Below are positions 41,250 through 49,196 of a stretch of DNA of 64,000 nucleotides, in pieces. Position numbers and translations under genes: made by a program. The notes below the pieces were generated by a model. That model ran no database searches. It saw only the letters and a list, made by a program, of their open reading frames with translations, and was not told the DNA's origin. This stretch comes from Sphingorhabdus sp. EL138 (GTDB taxonomy: Bacteria > Pseudomonadota > Alphaproteobacteria > Sphingomonadales > Sphingomonadaceae): positions 62,001 through 126,000 of the forward strand of contig NZ_OGVD01000002.1 of NCBI RefSeq assembly GCF_900258045.1, given 5' to 3'. Numbering within the stretch: position 1 is the stretch's first letter; every line of letters starts with the position of its first letter.

Positions 41250-42646
41250 AGCGATTGCTGCCCAATAGTTTGATCGGCCAGCTTTTGGCACTTGTGGCGG
41301 TCACCCTGCTGATAGCGCAGGGGATCAATGTCTTTCTATTATATCAGGGTGCGCAAAATCAGAAAATGGTTGAGGCGTCTGCTTCGGCCGTTGCGCGGAT
41401 CGCCTGGGAAGCGGAAAGAATCAATGAACGCGGCTTTCGCGAGCGGCGATATCGCCGCGATGGCAGCCTGCGCATCCGGCGGAACCGTCCCAGCACTACC
41501 TCGCAAAGCGCGATTGAAGACGGGCAAACCCGATTGCCAAGTGTCGAAGAACGTGCCGCCCGTGCGTTCGACAATCTGGGAATTGCTTTATTGTCTGTTC
41601 AGGCCGTACGCGTTGATAGCCTCCCAGCCAATATGAGAAATAGCGTGATCGGATTGGGCCGCGAACGTCAAAGGATGCGGGCGATCGCCTATCGCAAAAG
41701 GCCTCACAAGATTGATGGCTTCATAATCATGTCGGCGCAAGTTGGCGAAGGACGATGGCTCAATATTGCATCGGTCATCCGAGACCGTAATCCGCGACTC
41801 ATACGTACGCTGTTGTTCCAGACTGCGGTGATATATCTGATCTTGCTGATCCCGCTTATCTGGTTGGGACGCTATATATCACGCCCACTGAAAGCACTGA
41901 CCAAAGGAGCGGAAGATTTCCGCCCGGGGGCAAGTGCTCCGATAGCGGAAAGCGGTCCGCCTGATACGAAGCAACTGATCGCCGCGTTTAATGAAATGAA
42001 TGACCGTGTCGGCGCGATGCTCGATGAAAAAAATGTCATGCTGGGCGCGATCGGCCACGATTTGCGCACACCCCTGGCCGCTCTGCGCGTGCGGGTTGAG
42101 AGCGTGGAGGATGAGGAAGAACGCGACCGGATGATTGCCGGGATTGATGATATGGACCGGACGCTGGATGACATATTGTCACTGGCACGGCTCGGGCGGT
42201 CAAAAGAAGCGGCAGAGCCAACCGATATCAGTGCGCTGATCGAGACGGTAGCGGATGAGTTTACCGACATGGGCGCAGCGGTTTCCTTCACGCGCAGTGG
42301 GCGGACAATCGCCAATATCCGGGCGACCCTGATCCGCCGGGCACTCAGGAACCTGATCGGCAATGCCGTGAAATATGGCAAAGAAGCCGCCATCTCTGTG
42401 GACAAAGACGGGGACAAGCTGGTGATTCATGTGGATGATAATGGCCCGGGCATAGCGGAAGATCAGATCGAGGCCATGTTCGAACCCTTTGCCCGTGCCG
42501 AGATTTCCCGCAACCGGGCGACCGGCGGGTCGGGTCTTGGCCTGACACTCGCCCGCGCAATCATGCGTGATCATGGCGGTGATGTAACCTTGCAAAACCG
42601 GGCAGAAGGCGGCCTTCGGGCGTCACTCATCCTCAGTCTGGATTAG
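41246..42646 (+). CDS. EnvZ-type sensor histidine kinase with strongly basic periplasmic domain
   Basis: 466 residues: TM1 (IGQLLALVAVTLLIAQGINVF), a periplasmic part of about residues 33-188 that is unusually rich in Arg (ERINERGFRERRYRRDGSLR and RERQRMRAIAYRKRPH), TM2 (LFQTAVIYLILLIPLIWLG), HAMP, HisKA (AIGHDLRTPLAALR, His271), and HATPase_c (LIRRALRNLIGNAVKYG, DDNGPGIAEDQ, GGSGLGLTLARAI). It autophosphorylates on His and passes phosphate to the adjacent regulator. The basic sensor domain suggests an anionic ligand. Its stop overlaps the convergent motB remnant by 14 bases. Confidence 0.95.
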   Translation: MKRLLPNSLIGQLLALVAVTLLIAQGINVFLLYQGAQNQKMVEASASAVARIAWEAERINERGFRERRYRRDGSLRIRRNRPSTTSQSAIEDGQTRLPSVEERAARAFDNLGIALLSVQAVRVDSLPANMRNSVIGLGRERQRMRAIAYRKRPHKIDGFIIMSAQVGEGRWLNIASVIRDRNPRLIRTLLFQTAVIYLILLIPLIWLGRYISRPLKALTKGAEDFRPGASAPIAESGPPDTKQLIAAFNEMNDRVGAMLDEKNVMLGAIGHDLRTPLAALRVRVESVEDEEERDRMIAGIDDMDRTLDDILSLARLGRSKEAAEPTDISALIETVADEFTDMGAAVSFTRSGRTIANIRATLIRRALRNLIGNAVKYGKEAAISVDKDGDKLVIHVDDNGPGIAEDQIEAMFEPFARAEISRNRATGGSGLGLTLARAIMRDHGGDVTLQNRAEGGLRASLILSLD

Positions 42647-43352
42647 CGACCTTCTGCCACCCAAGGGTGATCGAGATCCTGCGGTTGCGGGGATCATATA
42701 TATCATGCGGTGTATAAGGTTCCCGGTCCGCGACGCCCTCAATTTTGAAAAACGCGTCAGGGCCTATGCCATTTTGTTGCAGGGTTTGGCGTGTCGCCTC
42801 TGCCCTTGCGGTGGACAGCATCCAGTTGTTCATCGTGCGCCCGGATGAAAAGGGCAGGGCATCGGTATGTCCCCGCACCATTAGCGGGTTGGGTGCCGGT
42901 TTGATCGCGGCCGCGACCTCGGCCAGCAATTTGCGCGCGGGCGCGCGCAGTGTGTCGGTGGCGAGTGCAAACATCGAAAAGTCGGCCTCGTCGATCAGCT
43001 CGATCCGCAGGCCCTCCCGTGTTTCGGTAAAGCGAATGTTGTTGTCGAACCTTTTCAACTCTTCGCTACGTTCAAGCCGCTCCGTGATCCGCTGCCTGAC
43101 CGCGGCAAATTCCTCACGGTCTTTCTGGTTGTGCACTGCGTTGGCGGCGGTGCTGTCTTTCGGAATGGCCAGCGATCGTTCCCCGACCTGGGCGGCGCGG
43201 CTGCGGTAATCCTCTTCGGACAGGATGGAATCACCGCCGAAGAAGCTGTCTGCCCCCGCATTATTCTCCCGCATTTCAACCAATGTCGGCGTAAAATATT
43301 CGGCCAGCGCCTTGCGTTCCTGTTCATCGGTGGAACTGAGCAGCCAAACCAG
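42633..43352 (-). pseudogene. motB remnant: OmpA-type C-terminus without the membrane anchor
   Basis: From the LVWLLSSTDEQERKALAEYFTPT segment onward this matches flagellar stator protein MotB: ENNAGADSFFGGDSIL, the plug/linker region, and the peptidoglycan-binding OmpA domain (PLMVRGHTDALPFSSGRTMNNWMLSTARAEATRQTLQQNGI, PRNRRISITL). In intact MotB the preceding part is a transmembrane helix with the proton-binding Asp, as in ADFVTAMMAFFLLMWLL. Here that sequence is absent; upstream in this frame is unrelated reading through the HTH gene. No motA is nearby. A deletion appears to have joined motB to the HTH gene. Confidence 0.85.
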
Positions 43353-43809
43353 CCGGCGCAAAGCGGCCCTGCGCGTCGCGGCCGGCGCCGTTGGTGTCAT
43401 GCTGATAGAGCAGGCGCAGCAGGTCATTGGCATATCTGGTCCGCTGACCCACGACCTTGCCATGATACCAGACATCCTCCTCCACGCCCTCGACGGCGCG
43501 CTGCCACGTGACTTCGCCGATGGTCGTCTCTGACCGGCGCAGCGCGAGGGCCCAGCGCTCGGCAAAGGCCGGGCTGCGCTTGCGATGGCGATAGGCGCTG
43601 TTCCAGCTGATCCCCGCCATGCGGCTGGCGTCCCTAACGCAGCGCGTCTTGGCCAGCGATTCAATAAAAATATTCTGCCGCTCCGCCGTCCAGCCATCAT
43701 GGCGGACGCGATAGGGTTTTTCGCGCGGCGTTTCCGGAGGCTCCGCCTGCTCGGCGGGGACGGGCAGGTTGGCGGGAGAAGGCGTGTCATCAGACGGATT
43801 ATTTGCCAT
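43324..43809 (-). CDS. Small HTH protein of unknown function, 3' end altered by fusion to motB
   Basis: 161 residues. The central part VRHDGWTAERQNIFIESLAKTRCVRDASRMAGISWNSAYRHRKRSP is a helix-turn-helix of the type common in sphingomonad hypothetical proteins and resembling phage terminase small subunit DNA-binding modules. After the RYANDLLRLLYQHD segment, the tail GAGRDAQGRFAPAGLAAQFHR is read out of frame across the start of the motB remnant, so the original C-terminus has probably been lost. N-terminal 30 residues are Pro/Glu-rich. The A+T-rich KAP gene lies upstream, with 194 bases between in which no gene is seen. Confidence 0.65.
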   Translation of the reverse strand: MANNPSDDTPSPANLPVPAEQAEPPETPREKPYRVRHDGWTAERQNIFIESLAKTRCVRDASRMAGISWNSAYRHRKRSPAFAERWALALRRSETTIGEVTWQRAVEGVEEDVWYHGKVVGQRTRYANDLLRLLYQHDTNGAGRDAQGRFAPAGLAAQFHR

Positions 43810-44003
43810 GGGGGAGCGGCCCTTTCGTTCCTGATTTGTTCTTTTGATTCGGGCCGGTGTATCAAAAGCTGGGGGTTGTAGGAAAGGGGGTGATCGGACG
43901 AATTTCGCTATGCTGAGTCTGGCTCAACGCGTTTTTGGTGCATCTACGTATCGGTTATGGAGAGTAGATTGGCAGAGTTGGGTGCCTAGAGGAAGTATGA
44001 TCA

Positions 44004-46211
44004 TCAAAATTTGTCTTTTCTATACATAGACAACAGAGCTTGGGCTTTTAGAAACAATTGAGATTCTGAATTGTCAATGATTGATCTCAATCGATCGAGG
44101 GTTGGGTCTAGTTCTAAGAATGCTTCAATATTCTCTCGATTAAGGTTAGTCTGAATTTTTCCATTCACTTCTGATTCCGTGGTCAGAAGACTGAGAAACT
44201 GCAGAAATTGACTATCATCATTTCCGACCAGTTTTTCTACTTCCAACTTTTTCTCAACATTCGCTTGTTTCCATGCATATAGAATACTTATTGGTTCGGG
44301 GGTTCTCGAGAGATCATCAAGCGACATCTTTTGATATCGTTGTACCAGCAATTCGGCGACCAACGTGTATTCGTCCTCATCTAGAGTCCACTCATCCCTC
44401 GGTTTTCCGTCATCACCAAACACGCCATGAGAGAAAGTTTCTCTCCTAAAAATTCTAGTCAACCAACCAATGGCTCGCCCTCCCTCGAACATTTGTTTCA
44501 AGGTCGATAGTCTTTGGGTATTATCGATCTTTTTCAGCAAGTCCGCGAGAATGTTGCTAACTATTCTCCACCCGGGATAGCTGAACATAAACTGTTCTCG
44601 CCCCCTAAGACCGTCATCATCCATTACGTTTGAAAAGGTTACAGCAAGAGTGACGGCATGTCCGGGATTCCAGCTATCGGGATAGGAGTTTTCTAATCTG
44701 TCCAAAATTCGCACGGCTTTACTATCGCCTAAGCTATCTTTTTGTTTTCCCCAATTAAGTAACAATGCTTCTGCCGCATCATTGTTTTTTGTTAGCGCTA
44801 TCTTGAGATTTACAAAGTCGCTTTCCAAAGGCGCCGCCTCGGGCTCCGTAAGTGCAAAAAACAGACGGTAGTGATCCACAGAAGCCAATCGTCGATCTTT
44901 TATCCGCTCTTGGATGACTTCATTGTGATCAGACGTAAAAATTGGCGGTTTACTGTCTGATATTGAGCCTCCGTCGAAACCAGGCAAGATATTTTGCCAT
45001 TCTATAAGGGTTCTTGACAGGTTGCGGTTGTCGTCACTGATTATTTCTTTTAGTTCTTGAAAAGACTGTTTTATACCGTGTTCTGAGACTGCTACTCGAC
45101 CGCTATATTTAGCGGCCATTGTATTCAGATATACTTCTATCCATTGATAGAGTTCACGATTTCCTAGCTTTATCATTTGCAACCAAACAAAGTCAGCTAT
45201 ATCAATCTTGTTTTTAAGAACGGGCAAGTAAGCTGATATCATATCCAAGCAACGGTTAACCGCCCTAGGTGAGTTTAGTCGCCGCCCACCTTCGCTATCG
45301 ATTACGTATTCTAGTCGACCTTGTTCTTCCGAATTCAAGTCCAGTTTGAAGTCGCTAAACTTCTCTCTAAACATTCGGCGCAAGCTAAATGATTCTGGCG
45401 CTGGAACAGAAATTGGTAATTGGATGATCTTCTCAAGATATTGTGATCCATTTTGGATGCCGGTTACAGTTTCAACAGCTTGTGAAACTGCATCATGATC
45501 ATAGCATATCGCATAAACGACATTTGGAAAATTAGCTACGGACTTCAATAGTCTCAATATCTCAACGATTTCGTCTGGGTCTAGCCGATCAAGATCATCG
45601 ATCGTTACAACAATTCTTGTTTCAAGTTGCCAGAGCTTTTTTGAAATTGCACCTTTTTGAACAATCAATGCTTTTTCATCCTTGGGTTGCATCGCTCTTT
45701 TCAACCCAATTGAAACATACGCTCCAGAGCCGGGCACCACTAACTCGCTGAGAGCACCTGTTTCCGAAGGAACTTTCAAGTTTCTCCCAAATTCTTGGAT
45801 GTCTTGCGCGAGTTCCTTGGCGATCAAAAATTGCTTTTCGACAATATTCCCTTTTTGAAACTTTAAGCCGGCTATCGTCGTCGATAGAACAGTGAAGAGT
45901 TCGGATATTAGTGACTCACGGCTTCCAACAAGCCAAGGACTGAATTCTGCCCAAGCAAGTTGGCCGTTGAGAATTTTGTCTTTGAGAGATCTTCGTGAGA
46001 AACCCAAAATGGTGCTTTTTCCCATGCCCCATTGCCCATCCAAACCTAGTACGGCACCTTTAGAAAGAGAAGGGTTTGTTAGTATTTCTCCAATTCTATT
46101 CGATAGAGAATTATAACCAAGAAAGTCTTCGCTTGTTTCTACCAAAACTTGATCATTGTGGTATTTTTCTAATTTTTTATCGCCATCATCCATGTTTTCT
46201 TTAAAGGTCAT
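44004..46211 (-). CDS. KAP-family P-loop NTPase (stand-alone, A+T-rich; candidate defence gene)
   Basis: 735 residues from ATG 46211; a TTG three codons earlier is the alternative. Walker A DGQWGMGKSTIL at about residues 58-69, the KAP landmark FSPWLVG near residue 93, Walker B VVTIDDLDRLDPDEIVEILRLLKS from about residue 201, and the following FPNVVYAICYDHDAVSQAV sensor region. The C-terminal 400 residues are helical with no recognised domain, and no clear transmembrane helices interrupt the P-loop part. KAP NTPases occur in several anti-phage systems (for example QatA). Composition differs from neighbours: at 44041-44100, 22 of 60 bases are G or C. No partner genes are adjacent. Confidence 0.88.
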   Translation of the reverse strand: MTFKENMDDGDKKLEKYHNDQVLVETSEDFLGYNSLSNRIGEILTNPSLSKGAVLGLDGQWGMGKSTILGFSRRSLKDKILNGQLAWAEFSPWLVGSRESLISELFTVLSTTIAGLKFQKGNIVEKQFLIAKELAQDIQEFGRNLKVPSETGALSELVVPGSGAYVSIGLKRAMQPKDEKALIVQKGAISKKLWQLETRIVVTIDDLDRLDPDEIVEILRLLKSVANFPNVVYAICYDHDAVSQAVETVTGIQNGSQYLEKIIQLPISVPAPESFSLRRMFREKFSDFKLDLNSEEQGRLEYVIDSEGGRRLNSPRAVNRCLDMISAYLPVLKNKIDIADFVWLQMIKLGNRELYQWIEVYLNTMAAKYSGRVAVSEHGIKQSFQELKEIISDDNRNLSRTLIEWQNILPGFDGGSISDSKPPIFTSDHNEVIQERIKDRRLASVDHYRLFFALTEPEAAPLESDFVNLKIALTKNNDAAEALLLNWGKQKDSLGDSKAVRILDRLENSYPDSWNPGHAVTLAVTFSNVMDDDGLRGREQFMFSYPGWRIVSNILADLLKKIDNTQRLSTLKQMFEGGRAIGWLTRIFRRETFSHGVFGDDGKPRDEWTLDEDEYTLVAELLVQRYQKMSLDDLSRTPEPISILYAWKQANVEKKLEVEKLVGNDDSQFLQFLSLLTTESEVNGKIQTNLNRENIEAFLELDPTLDRLRSIIDNSESQLFLKAQALLSMYRKDKF

Positions 46212-46351
46212 ATCTGACAAGTTGTCTAGTCAAACAGTTCTAGATAATAATCATCAGCACTCCAAACTAAACTGCGCTTATTCAAATGTTGCCAATAGCG
46301 ATGAATTAGTACGAGGCTTAAAAATCGGTTTCTGCCGATAGTCTGCTCCCT

Positions 46352-46379
46352 TGGACAACCCACTAAAGTAGATTGTCCA
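46352..46379. promoter_or_regulatory. Inverted repeat in the KAP-acnA divergent gap
   Basis: TGGACAA (46352-46358) and TTGTCCA (46373-46379) are exact inverted copies separated by 14 bases, midway between the divergent KAP and acnA genes. A regulator dimer could bind here. Which gene it affects is unknown. Confidence 0.4.
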
Positions 46380-46450
46380 CATTGCGGGATGATCATCCAT
46401 CCGCTAAAGCGCTCCCGAACATCGATTCATTCGCTGGAATTCCTGCTCCC

Positions 46451-46487
46451 CTCCGCCTTCGCTGAAGCTACGGCGGACAGGTCCGCC
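46451..46487. repeat. REP-like palindromic element in the acnA leader
   Basis: TCCGCC (46452-46457) can pair with GGCGGA (46472-46477) around TTC-GCT-GAA, while the same GGCGGAC can instead pair with GTCCGCC (46481-46487). The two hairpins exclude each other. The motif resembles short dispersed palindromes seen between genes in many bacteria. It lies about 30 bases before the acnA start, so it could also influence acnA expression; only its structure is observed. Confidence 0.45.
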
Positions 46488-46517
46488 CGGCGTAAAAATT
46501 AAAATAAGGGACGAATT

Positions 46518-49196
46518 ATGACGACCACCGGACAAGACTCACTCGGCACGCGCGCGACGCTTAATGTTAATGGCACCAGCTATGCCTATTATTCGCTCGC
46601 CAAGGCGGCGGCGAAGCTCGGGGATATAGAGCGCTTGCCCTATACGCTGAAAGTCCTGCTCGAAAATATGCTGCGCTTTGAAGATGGCGGCCATACGGTG
46701 GCGGCTGGGGATGCGCAGGCGGTGGTCGACTGGCAGAAAGAGGCCAAAAGCAGCGCTGAAATTCAATATCGCCCCGCGCGCGTTTTGATGCAGGATTTTA
46801 CCGGCGTTCCGGCGGTTGTTGACCTCGCGGCGATGCGCGACGGGATTAAGTCGCTGGACGGCGATGCGCAGAAGATCAACCCGCAGGTGCCGGTGCATCT
46901 GGTGATTGACCACTCGGTCATGGTTGACGAGTTTGGTACACCGCAAGCGTTCGAGAATAATGTGGCGCTGGAATATCAGCGCAATATGGAGCGCTATGAA
47001 TTTCTGAAATGGGGATCGAAGGCGTTTGATAATTTCTCCGTTGTGCCTCCCGGAACCGGCATTTGCCACCAGGTGAATCTGGAGAATATTGCGAAGGCCG
47101 TCTGGTCGTCCCAGGATCAGAATGGCGATATGGTGGCCTATCCCGATACCTGTGTCGGCACCGACAGCCATACGACGATGATCAACGGTCTGGGCGTGCT
47201 CGGCTGGGGCGTGGGCGGGATTGAGGCGGAGGCCGCGATGCTCGGCCAGCCGGTATCGATGCTGATCCCCGAAGTGGTCGGGTTCAAGCTGACCGGCGAG
47301 CTGGCCGAGGGTATTACCGCGACCGATCTGGTGCTGACCTGTGTGCAGATGCTTCGCGAAGTGGGCGTGGTCGGGCGCTTTGTCGAATTTTATGGTCCGG
47401 GTGTTGCGGCTCTGTCGCTGGCGGATCGCGCGACGATTGCCAATATGGCGCCGGAATATGGCGCGACCTGCGGTTACTTCCCGATTGATGACAAGACGCT
47501 GGATTATCTGCGCCTGACGGGTCGCAGCGAAGCGGATATCGATCTGTGTGAAGCCTATGCCAAGGAACAGGGTTTCTGGCGCCATGATGACGAGGTTGAG
47601 GCGATCTATACCAAGACGCTGGAGCTTGACATGACCAGTGTTGTGCCATCGCTGTCGGGGCCGAAGCTGCCGCAACAGCGCGTGTCGATGGCCGATCTCG
47701 ACGAGAGCTTTAACAAGGATATTACGGATGTGTTCAATTCATCCGATCCCGACAAGCGGGTGGCTGTCGATGGTGTGGACCATGATCTGGGCCATGGCGA
47801 TGTGACCATTGCGGCGATTACGTCCTGCACCAACACGTCCAACCCCAGCGTGCTGATCGCCGCCGGTCTGGTCGCGCGCAAGGCGCGGGAGCGGGGCCTG
47901 CAGCGCAAGCCATGGGTGAAGAGTTCGCTGGCGCCGGGATCGCAGGTGGTGACGGATTATCTCGACAAGGCGGGGCTGAGCGAGGATCTCAACTATCTGG
48001 GCTTTAACCTGGTCGGCTATGGCTGCACGACCTGTATTGGTAACTCGGGGCCATTGCCGGCACCGATTTCCAAGGCGATTAATGACAATGATCTGGTTGC
48101 GGCGTCCGTATTGTCGGGCAACCGGAACTTTGAAGGCCGTGTGTCTCAGGATGTGCGGGCCAACTATCTCGCGTCGCCGCCGCTGGTTGTCGCCTATGCG
48201 CTGAAAGGCACGGTGTGTGAGGATATGTACGAGACGCCGATCGGGCAGGGCAGCGATGGTGCGGATGTGTACCTGCGCGATATCTGGCCGACCAATGATG
48301 AGGTCAACGCCGCGATGGGCGGGGCTGTGTCGCGCGAGATGTTCGAGAGCCGCTATGCCGATGTCTATAAAGGGGACGCGGCGTGGCAGGATATTGATGT
48401 GACCGGCGGCGATACCTATCAGTGGCGTGCGGGGTCCACTTATGTGGCCAATCCGCCCTACTTTGATGGCATGACCATGACGCCGGAGCCTGTGGGCGAT
48501 ATTGTCGACGCCAAGACACTGGCATTATTGGGGGATTCGATCACGACCGACCATATCTCGCCGGCCGGTGCGATCAAGGAAGACTCGCCCGCCGGAGAAT
48601 ATCTGCGCGACCATCAGGTGGCAAAGCAGGACTTCAACAGCTACGGCAGCCGCCGCGGAAATCACGATGTCATGATGCGCGGAACCTTCGCCAACATCCG
48701 CATCAAGAACGAAATGGCCGACGGCAAGGAAGGCGGTTACACCAAATATAATGGTGAGATCATGCCCATCTACGACGCCGCAATGCGCCACAAAGCGGAC
48801 GGCAATGACCTGGTTGTTATTGGCGGAGAGCAATATGGTACCGGCTCTTCCCGCGACTGGGCCGCGAAAGGCACGAACCTGCTGGGCGTGCGGGCTGTGA
48901 TCGTGGAAAGCTATGAGCGTATTCACCGCAGCAACCTGGTTGGCATGGGTGTGTTACCGCTCCAATTTGCCGAGGGTGTTGATCGCAATAGCCTGAACCT
49001 TGATGGCAGTGAGAGCTTTACCATCAAGGGTGTCGCAACGCTGGATCCGCGCCAGACGGTTGAGGTTGAAATGACCCGCGCTGATGGTTCGACAGAAACA
49101 TTCGAAACGCTCTGCCGGATCGATACCGCCAACGAGATGGAATATTTCCTCAACGGCGGTATTCTGCATTACGTGCTGCGCAATCTGGCGGGCTAG
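46518..49196 (+). CDS. acnA: Aconitate hydratase A
   Basis: 892 residues. The [4Fe-4S] cysteines are in [14 protein letters not shown] and [15 protein letters not shown]; other landmarks are [36 protein letters not shown] and the swivelling domain [20 protein letters not shown]. It converts citrate to isocitrate in the TCA cycle and can act as an iron-responsive RNA-binding protein when the cluster is lost. AAGGGA precedes the ATG. It is divergent from the A+T-rich KAP gene and marks the return to host-like G+C-rich DNA. Confidence 0.99.

Follow-up and report, generated by a model that had tools for sequence, protein, structure and literature searches.

A PifA-family KAP NTPase gene in a probable defence-cassette slot upstream of acnA in Sphingorhabdus

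We analysed a stretch of 64,000 nucleotides from Sphingorhabdus sp. EL138 (contig NZ_OGVD01000002.1, positions 62,001 to 126,000 of the forward strand), called the window below, and within it a gene for a KAP-type NTPase that lies upstream of the aconitase gene acnA. We consider it probable, at roughly 0.73, that this gene encodes a PifA-family KAP NTPase of the abortive-infection type, and that it is the present occupant of a slot in which each genome read carries one compact, A+T-rich and mostly defence-related cassette that is exchanged by recombination between the flanks. The observations on which this reading is based are the homology of the protein, the A+T-rich insert, the differing contents of the slot in 25 genomes, its sharp common edges, the near-constant gap beyond acnA, and the conflicting trees of the two flanks.

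With regard to mechanism, phage components would trigger the PifA-like ATPase and the ATPase would stop the infected cell, as has been proposed for PifA of the F plasmid. Cassettes would be replaced by homologous recombination in the conserved flanks, a route that we infer from the lack of any recombinase in the set of cassette proteins scanned. The slot may be tolerated at this position because both bordering genes point away from it.

A chromosomal relative of PifA

The gene (44004..46211, minus strand) is an intact open reading frame (ORF) of 735 codons from an ATG at 46211, or of 738 codons from a TTG at 46220, to which the frame extends. An earlier note on this DNA had reported intact Walker A, Walker B and FSPW landmarks of KAP proteins in a 735-residue product; these are confirmed by the ORF, by the motif positions (Walker A, GQWGMGKS, at residue 62; EFSPW at residue 92; Walker B, IVVTIDDLD, at residue 203) and by a match to the Pfam KAP_NTPase family over residues 36-331 (E 1.6e-45). 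The same note had left a C-terminal part of 400 residues unassigned and had named QatABCD as an example of anti-phage systems with KAP NTPases. The first of these statements does not hold, as the PADLOC PifA model PDLC02361 aligns residues 18-737 with profile positions 3-719 of 720 (E 4e-180) and thus covers the C-terminal part. Identity as QatA was rejected as well: PADLOC QatA models reach 5e-15 on this protein, and the NCBIfam QatA model scores 46 bits against a curated cut-off of 600.

PifA of the F plasmid (in L010) aligns with residues 23-600 at 25% identity over 609 aligned positions in a two-sequence blastp comparison (E 2e-53). The two proteins share the KAP P-loop domain, a common C-terminal region, a similar length (741 amino acids against 735-738) and the organization as a one-gene system. 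They differ in that the window homologue is only 25% identical, is encoded on a chromosome of an alphaproteobacterial host, and has no adjacent pifC. The pifC gene precedes pifA in the F plasmid and in one Klebsiella plasmid; here it is absent, no other ORF of at least 80 amino acids being present within 44004-46517, and the annotations around three rhizobial plasmid relatives show none either. When 23 KAP proteins were placed in a quick tree, the window protein fell with F PifA in one set of 11 rows (Shimodaira-Hasegawa-like approximate likelihood ratio test, SH-aLRT, 96.7), although the tree has long branches and the set leaves out six other rows with a match to the PifA profile. Neither protein has a 19-residue window of hydropathy above 1.6, so that this test lends no support to an action on membranes. 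No solved structure was related to the PifA homologue by sequence at E <= 1, and single-sequence structure prediction of the C-terminal part gave a mean predicted local distance difference test score (pLDDT) of 39.5, too low for the model to be of use.

Relatives of the protein are frequent on plasmids and rare in related chromosomes. Among 72,556 plasmid records 1095 match it, 683 of them over at least 80% of the query, and the top match is an Agrobacterium plasmid protein with 32.5% identity. Of 117 genomes searched, with the EL138 genome included, 8 match at E <= 0.001, and full-length or near-full-length relatives are found only in the EL138 genome, G090 (32%) and G073 (28%), the latter two representing another family of the same order. 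No close relatives were found in a collection of genome contigs. The PifA model itself gives 73 matches at E <= 0.001 across 385 genomes of the class, mostly to part of the profile, and matches 6 of 14 control genomes; a weak match to it therefore indicates KAP kinship only.

The base composition of the gene is foreign to its surroundings. Its G+C content is 42%. At third codon positions (GC3) the value is 0.387, compared with 0.703 for acnA and a range of 0.571-0.747 for five further neighbours. When the window was scanned in steps of 100, the 2.5 kb of lowest G+C began at 43901 (0.417, window mean 0.531). The G/C counts given in the earlier note are exact when recomputed (22 of 60 at 44041-44100; 41 of 60 at 47161-47220 in acnA). 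The rarity of the gene in relatives, its composition and the presence of other genes at the same place elsewhere support the proposal that this DNA was acquired; when the gene was looked for at this place in relatives, all 24 other genomes read were found to hold other genes there. The proposal of a possible one-gene defence system is also right in kind, since the gene is a stand-alone candidate, but the kind is a familiar one: to judge from its sequence, the gene is a chromosomal PifA relative and a new member of a known family whose one-gene organization has long been known. Acquired DNA and a candidate defence gene thus stand from the earlier interpretation, the novelty of the C-terminus and the link to QatA do not, and the notable feature of the locus is the slot.

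Occupancy, edges and contents of the slot

Slots were read in 25 genomes, namely the window, the 16 loci L041-L056, L072 (genome G030), L074 and L178-L183; 24 of these are the EL138 genome or are labelled as the same genus, and L074 comes from another collection. In a set of 32 genomes of the genus 24 were readable, and in the other eight (G001, G002, G004, G008, G014, G017, G021 and G029) acnA is lacking or incomplete, or a contig end falls near its start. An A+T-rich insert is present upstream of acnA in all 25 genomes read, usually between a helix-turn-helix (HTH) gene and acnA. Its low-G+C core, delimited by a segment score, measures 2355-3706 nt in 24 slots; in L055 a contig end interrupts the slot. 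In the 4.5 kb that precede acnA, the 2 kb of lowest G+C lie 0.14-0.23 below acnA in 24 of 24 usable slots; in a set of other acnA loci (n=70: L078 and L081-L149, 63 of them long enough) the largest drop is 0.088. A prediction of occupancy that was fixed before G024-G031 were read agreed with 6 of 6 testable genomes, the remaining two being G030, already read, and G029, which lacks a true acnA.

In the window the slot is a cassette at 43890..46402 (no strand assigned; G+C 0.418) without a long DNA match to the relatives compared. Its edges were set by blastn against the 16 relatives L041-L056: the alignments break on the left at 43888-43890 in six relatives (L041-L045 and L047) and on the right at 46402-46403 in three (L041-L043), and the only aligned piece inside the slot is 58 nt long, in L052. 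Each edge coincides with a short common sequence. The left edge element TGTAGGAAAG (43877..43886, minus strand; CTTTCCTACA on the strand of the HTH gene) is common to slots and to paralogs of the HTH gene, and when 1.5-6.5 kb upstream of acnA were searched with one mismatch allowed it was found in 22 of 25 slots, at 2.6-5.3 kb from acnA. In L072 the left slot edge occurs twice, at -4949 and -3381 from acnA, with ORFs of 182 and 230 amino acids between the two copies, a pattern that a second insertion at this edge might have left. The right edge element GCTAAAGC (46403..46410) lies about 116 nt before the acnA start codon; an exact copy no more than 140 nt from acnA is present in the window, in 15 of the 18 other loci in one batch of the 25 and in 5 of the 6 loci in another batch, with variants elsewhere.

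The conserved right anchor is acnA (46518..49196, plus strand), a name taken from the earlier note and recognised by eye. The distance from acnA to the next gene on its far side is 48-57 nt in nine of the ten genus loci that have the pair, the window included, and 919 nt in L072. Further past acnA the gaps vary more (15-18 nt in some loci, 762-764 nt in L070 and L071), and the gap between the HTH gene and acnA spans 2.7-5.2 kb in the nine loci in which both were found.

The occupants of the slot include Lamassu, retron II-A, restriction-modification, OLD-like, NACHT, FRG, TIR-caspase and PifA. A PADLOC match was obtained at E <= 1e-20 in 17 of 25 slots and at 1e-10 in 19 of 25; as a control, none of 10 neighbouring genes in the window has a match at 1e-10. 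Each slot holds one system-like cassette, with no further systems or mobile elements stacked beside it. A scan of 41 cassette proteins detected no family of recombinases, integrases or transposases.

We compared these properties with defence hotspots described in other bacteria. The slot works like known core defence hotspots and differs from them by holding one compact cassette per genome read and by the lack of a recombinase among the proteins scanned. The two features of a core hotspot, variable defence cargo between the same anchors and cargo exchanged between lineages, both appear to be present here on sequence comparison. According to PMC10250203, cDHS1 and cDHS2 of Pseudomonas aeruginosa likewise place defence systems between fixed core genes, are occupied in the majority of isolates and have no single mobile element family, and cDHS1 lies below the chromosome in G+C; recombination in the flanks is suggested by those authors. 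The same paper gives median sizes of 26 kb and 6 kb and describes many systems at a single cDHS1 locus, whereas the acnA slot holds one compact cassette per genome, with a core of 2.4-3.7 kb, across species. The immigration control region yjiA-yjiN of enterobacteria, as described in PMC12707154, resembles the acnA slot in the cassette-like swap of restriction and other defence genes between conserved anchors and in the lack of an integrase such as that of hotspot 37; it differs in its hosts and anchors, in being more centred on restriction and in having a known empty site, none having been found for the acnA slot. The E. coli defence island hotspots share fixed integration places with variable defence cargo but, according to PMC10121019, are mostly recognisable mobile elements with a median occupancy of 8%; the acnA slot is occupied in 25 of 25 genomes read, with no integrase among the proteins scanned. 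Searches of the open-access literature on defence islands and phages in sphingomonads, on aconitase-linked defence islands and on anti-phage genes of Sphingorhabdus and Parasphingorhabdus gave no title about this acnA slot.

A fixed chromosomal address with one compact cassette per genome read offers a clean way to harvest defence genes. The cassettes of L041 and its homologue L052, and of L045, L049 and L051, which have no PADLOC match, are candidate new systems, since known systems fill this slot in other genomes. The slot also makes it possible to test how short defence cassettes can move although they bring no recombinase themselves, and the HTH family provides a marker for seeking further slots.

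Exchange of cassettes and competing explanations

In the pair L046 and L074, 2058 nt with an ATPase gene and 2106 nt with a retron replace each other cleanly. The flanks of these two loci show 92.6% identity over the 5170 nt that lead to the cassette and 93.5% identity on the other side, starting 142 nt before acnA. In L045 and L074, which are two species, acnA is 98.7% identical over 990 nt and the slots hold unrelated cassettes that share no DNA match. Trees of the HTH flank and of the acnA flank disagree in the 13 genomes with an alignable HTH flank. In approximately unbiased (AU) tests, whose p values serve as guides because the groups were chosen after the trees, the HTH data reject the acnA groups L042+L043 (p 0.008), five rows including the window (8e-5), L047+L072 (0.018) and L045+L074 (3e-7), and the acnA data reject L042+L179+L180 (p 0.006). 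The conflict between the flank trees shows that recombination has occurred between the flanks, and it fits the replacement of cassettes by flank recombination.

Several observations weigh against the reading of a defence slot exchanged through its flanks. The acnA loci L078, L081 and L082 have no such insert and have different neighbours of acnA, and a quick acnA tree (with base-composition warnings) places them inside the 25; loss of the slot or a different history of their acnA could account for this, and the slot can therefore not be taken as universal across acnA relatives. An empty site with both flanks was not found among the genomes read. In six genomes the HTH edge copy lies beyond 4.2 kb from acnA (4.3-5.3 kb; in L072 by the outer copy), with extra genes between. 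The conflict of the flank trees is evidence of recombination near the slot, not that recombination carried the cassettes; the AU test on acnA data does not reject L046+L074 (p 0.30), and the AU groups were named with the trees in view. Several PADLOC matches are generic (AAA/OLD, kinase, methyltransferase, HerA), 24 of the 25 slots were scanned and five of them have no match, and several slot ORFs fall outside the scan for recombinases. Finally, a defence role for the window gene can only be inferred, because identity to F PifA is only 25% and because, according to PMC8594841, F PifA affected very few phages.

Three other explanations have to be set beside this reading. A housekeeping or plasmid-related role for the PifA-like protein, instead of defence, seems improbable to us. 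The many relatives on plasmids would suit it, and PMC8594841 reports an effect of F PifA on no more than two or three phages out of a large set, from which the authors of the BASEL study suggest that PifA may have other roles; the same paper describes F PifA as a probable sensor of T7 proteins (Gp1.2, with some part for Gp10) that would cause cell death through membrane depolarisation. What speaks against such a role is that the gene is rare in relatives and foreign in composition and that its slot is filled elsewhere mainly by defence-like genes. Somewhat less doubtful, but still unlikely, is that the HTH unit or a system of repetitive extragenic palindromic (REP) sequences and REP-associated tyrosine transposases (RAYT), rather than flank recombination, brings cassettes to the acnA site. 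The HTH gene that borders the slot apparently belongs to a multicopy, mobile family: the EL138 genome has five further copies or relatives, six related copies in all with that of the window, and matches occur in at least 30 of the 32 genus genomes, with at least 13 in one of them. We examined 40 copies (L242-L281) from eight genomes, leaving out the acnA copy and counting orthologues separately, and found CTTTCCTACA on the 5' side of all 40. Within genomes, the sequence common to two copies begins 0-24 nt ahead of the edge element in nine of ten pairs and 64 nt ahead in the tenth, so that the element resembles the terminus of a mobile unit. On the 5' side 14 of 40 copies have a 700-nt window below 45% G+C, and on the 3' side none of the 40 does (Wilcoxon test on minima, p 9e-6), a comparison biased by the G+C-rich rest of some HTH genes that the 3' side includes. 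Several slots have REP-like sequence to the left of the cassette, and elsewhere in the genus inverted REP-like repeats frame small A+T-rich ORFs. However, no matching REP copy was seen at the right edge in the slots, and the window slot has none; the closest slot REPs come from one acnA clade and may be ancestral; the role of the HTH protein here is putative; and an A+T-rich 5' side could reflect intergenic DNA that tolerates insertion.

A third route, to which we give a slightly better though still low chance, is a relay in which particles like the gene transfer agent (GTA) of Rhodobacter capsulatus, RcGTA, carry fragments of about 4 kb between cells of the genus, so that short cassettes are swapped at acnA by homologous recombination. 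Such a relay would account for single compact cassettes without recombinase genes, although compactness may simply be widespread among such systems. In 24 of 32 genus genomes the GTA-type family DUF2460 is found, in one of them only in part, and proteins of L209 match RcGTA structures (capsid 2.7e-87, distal tail protein 2.2e-43, start of gp15 7.5e-42). According to PMC9662315, RcGTA packages about 4 kb, a size to be compared with the cassette cores of 2355-3706 nt; the largest cassettes would leave little flank. On the other side, the GTA_TIM domain of gp15 is found in none of the 32 genomes, with a Caulobacter control that does match, so that the cluster may be a relic of an RcGTA-like prophage; the gp15-like ORF of L209 has 732 amino acids against 1304 in the RcGTA structure entry. 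Across the loci L208-L211, an RcGTA-like head-tail cluster is seen in relatives, but the EL138 genome has no DUF2460 match and shows only remnants at that place, the HTH gene and a shortened gp15-like start. In the cluster of L209 a relative of the HTH gene stands directly before an ORF that resembles a large terminase by eye; this ORF has no PDB match, and the HTH gene at that position lacks CTTTCCTACA. Small terminases encoded by satellites redirect phage packaging. By analogy, the slot might be one node of a genus-wide network in which the mobile HTH family marks A+T-rich docking sites, HTH proteins steer neighbouring DNA into small GTA particles and defence genes circulate one compact system at a time, a scheme that we regard as a long shot.

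Features bordering the slot and related loci

The HTH gene that borders the slot in the window (43324..43809, minus strand) encodes 161 amino acids, against ORFs of 285-343 amino acids in several relatives, and HTH proteins gave no PDB matches or none that were convincing. It is abutted by a fragment of the C-terminal part of MotB with its OmpA domain (42633..43331, minus strand), which lies outside the cassette; at 42633-43350 relatives carry the 3' part of the HTH gene where the window has this fragment. Another MotB-like gene of the EL138 genome, at C1:1491577, is 49% identical and has a frame of 290 amino acids. The truncated motB/HTH junction described in the earlier note is thus real, and it looks like a rearrangement separate from the cassette. 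Upstream of the HTH gene a GTTC-N7-GTTC box (43827..43841, minus strand) is present, as in 12 of 25 slots, and a similar sequence precedes the HTH gene at the GTA position; the box resembles the alphaproteobacterial LexA box.

Inverted repeats had also been reported beside the gene, and both pairs exist. The pair at 46452..46477 belongs to the acnA leader, hence to the flank and not to the insert, and is also visible in L041-L043; only the second pair, at 46352-46379, lies within the insert, near its right end.

Two candidates for cassette ends were rejected. The left edge element was considered as a site-specific attachment (att) site, and no right-hand copy was noticed; the element sits 5' of HTH units. 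The REP-like sequence was found on the left side only and mainly in one clade.

Small A+T-rich ORFs enclosed by inverted REP-like repeats (TGTCACCGTAAT) occur in L190 (3583-5650) and L191 (2608-3195), and L190 has two very similar ORFs of 210-211 amino acids, each framed by such repeats. ORFs that resemble RAYT by eye adjoin repeats of this kind in L192, L196 and L198. In the EL138 genome itself (C1), an ORF of 263 amino acids with a G+C content of 0.39 (L152, 4846-5637) lies between a gene that resembles nrdB by eye and an HTH paralog. It adjoins the only exact match to TGTCACCGTAATYC in that genome and is possibly a second slot.

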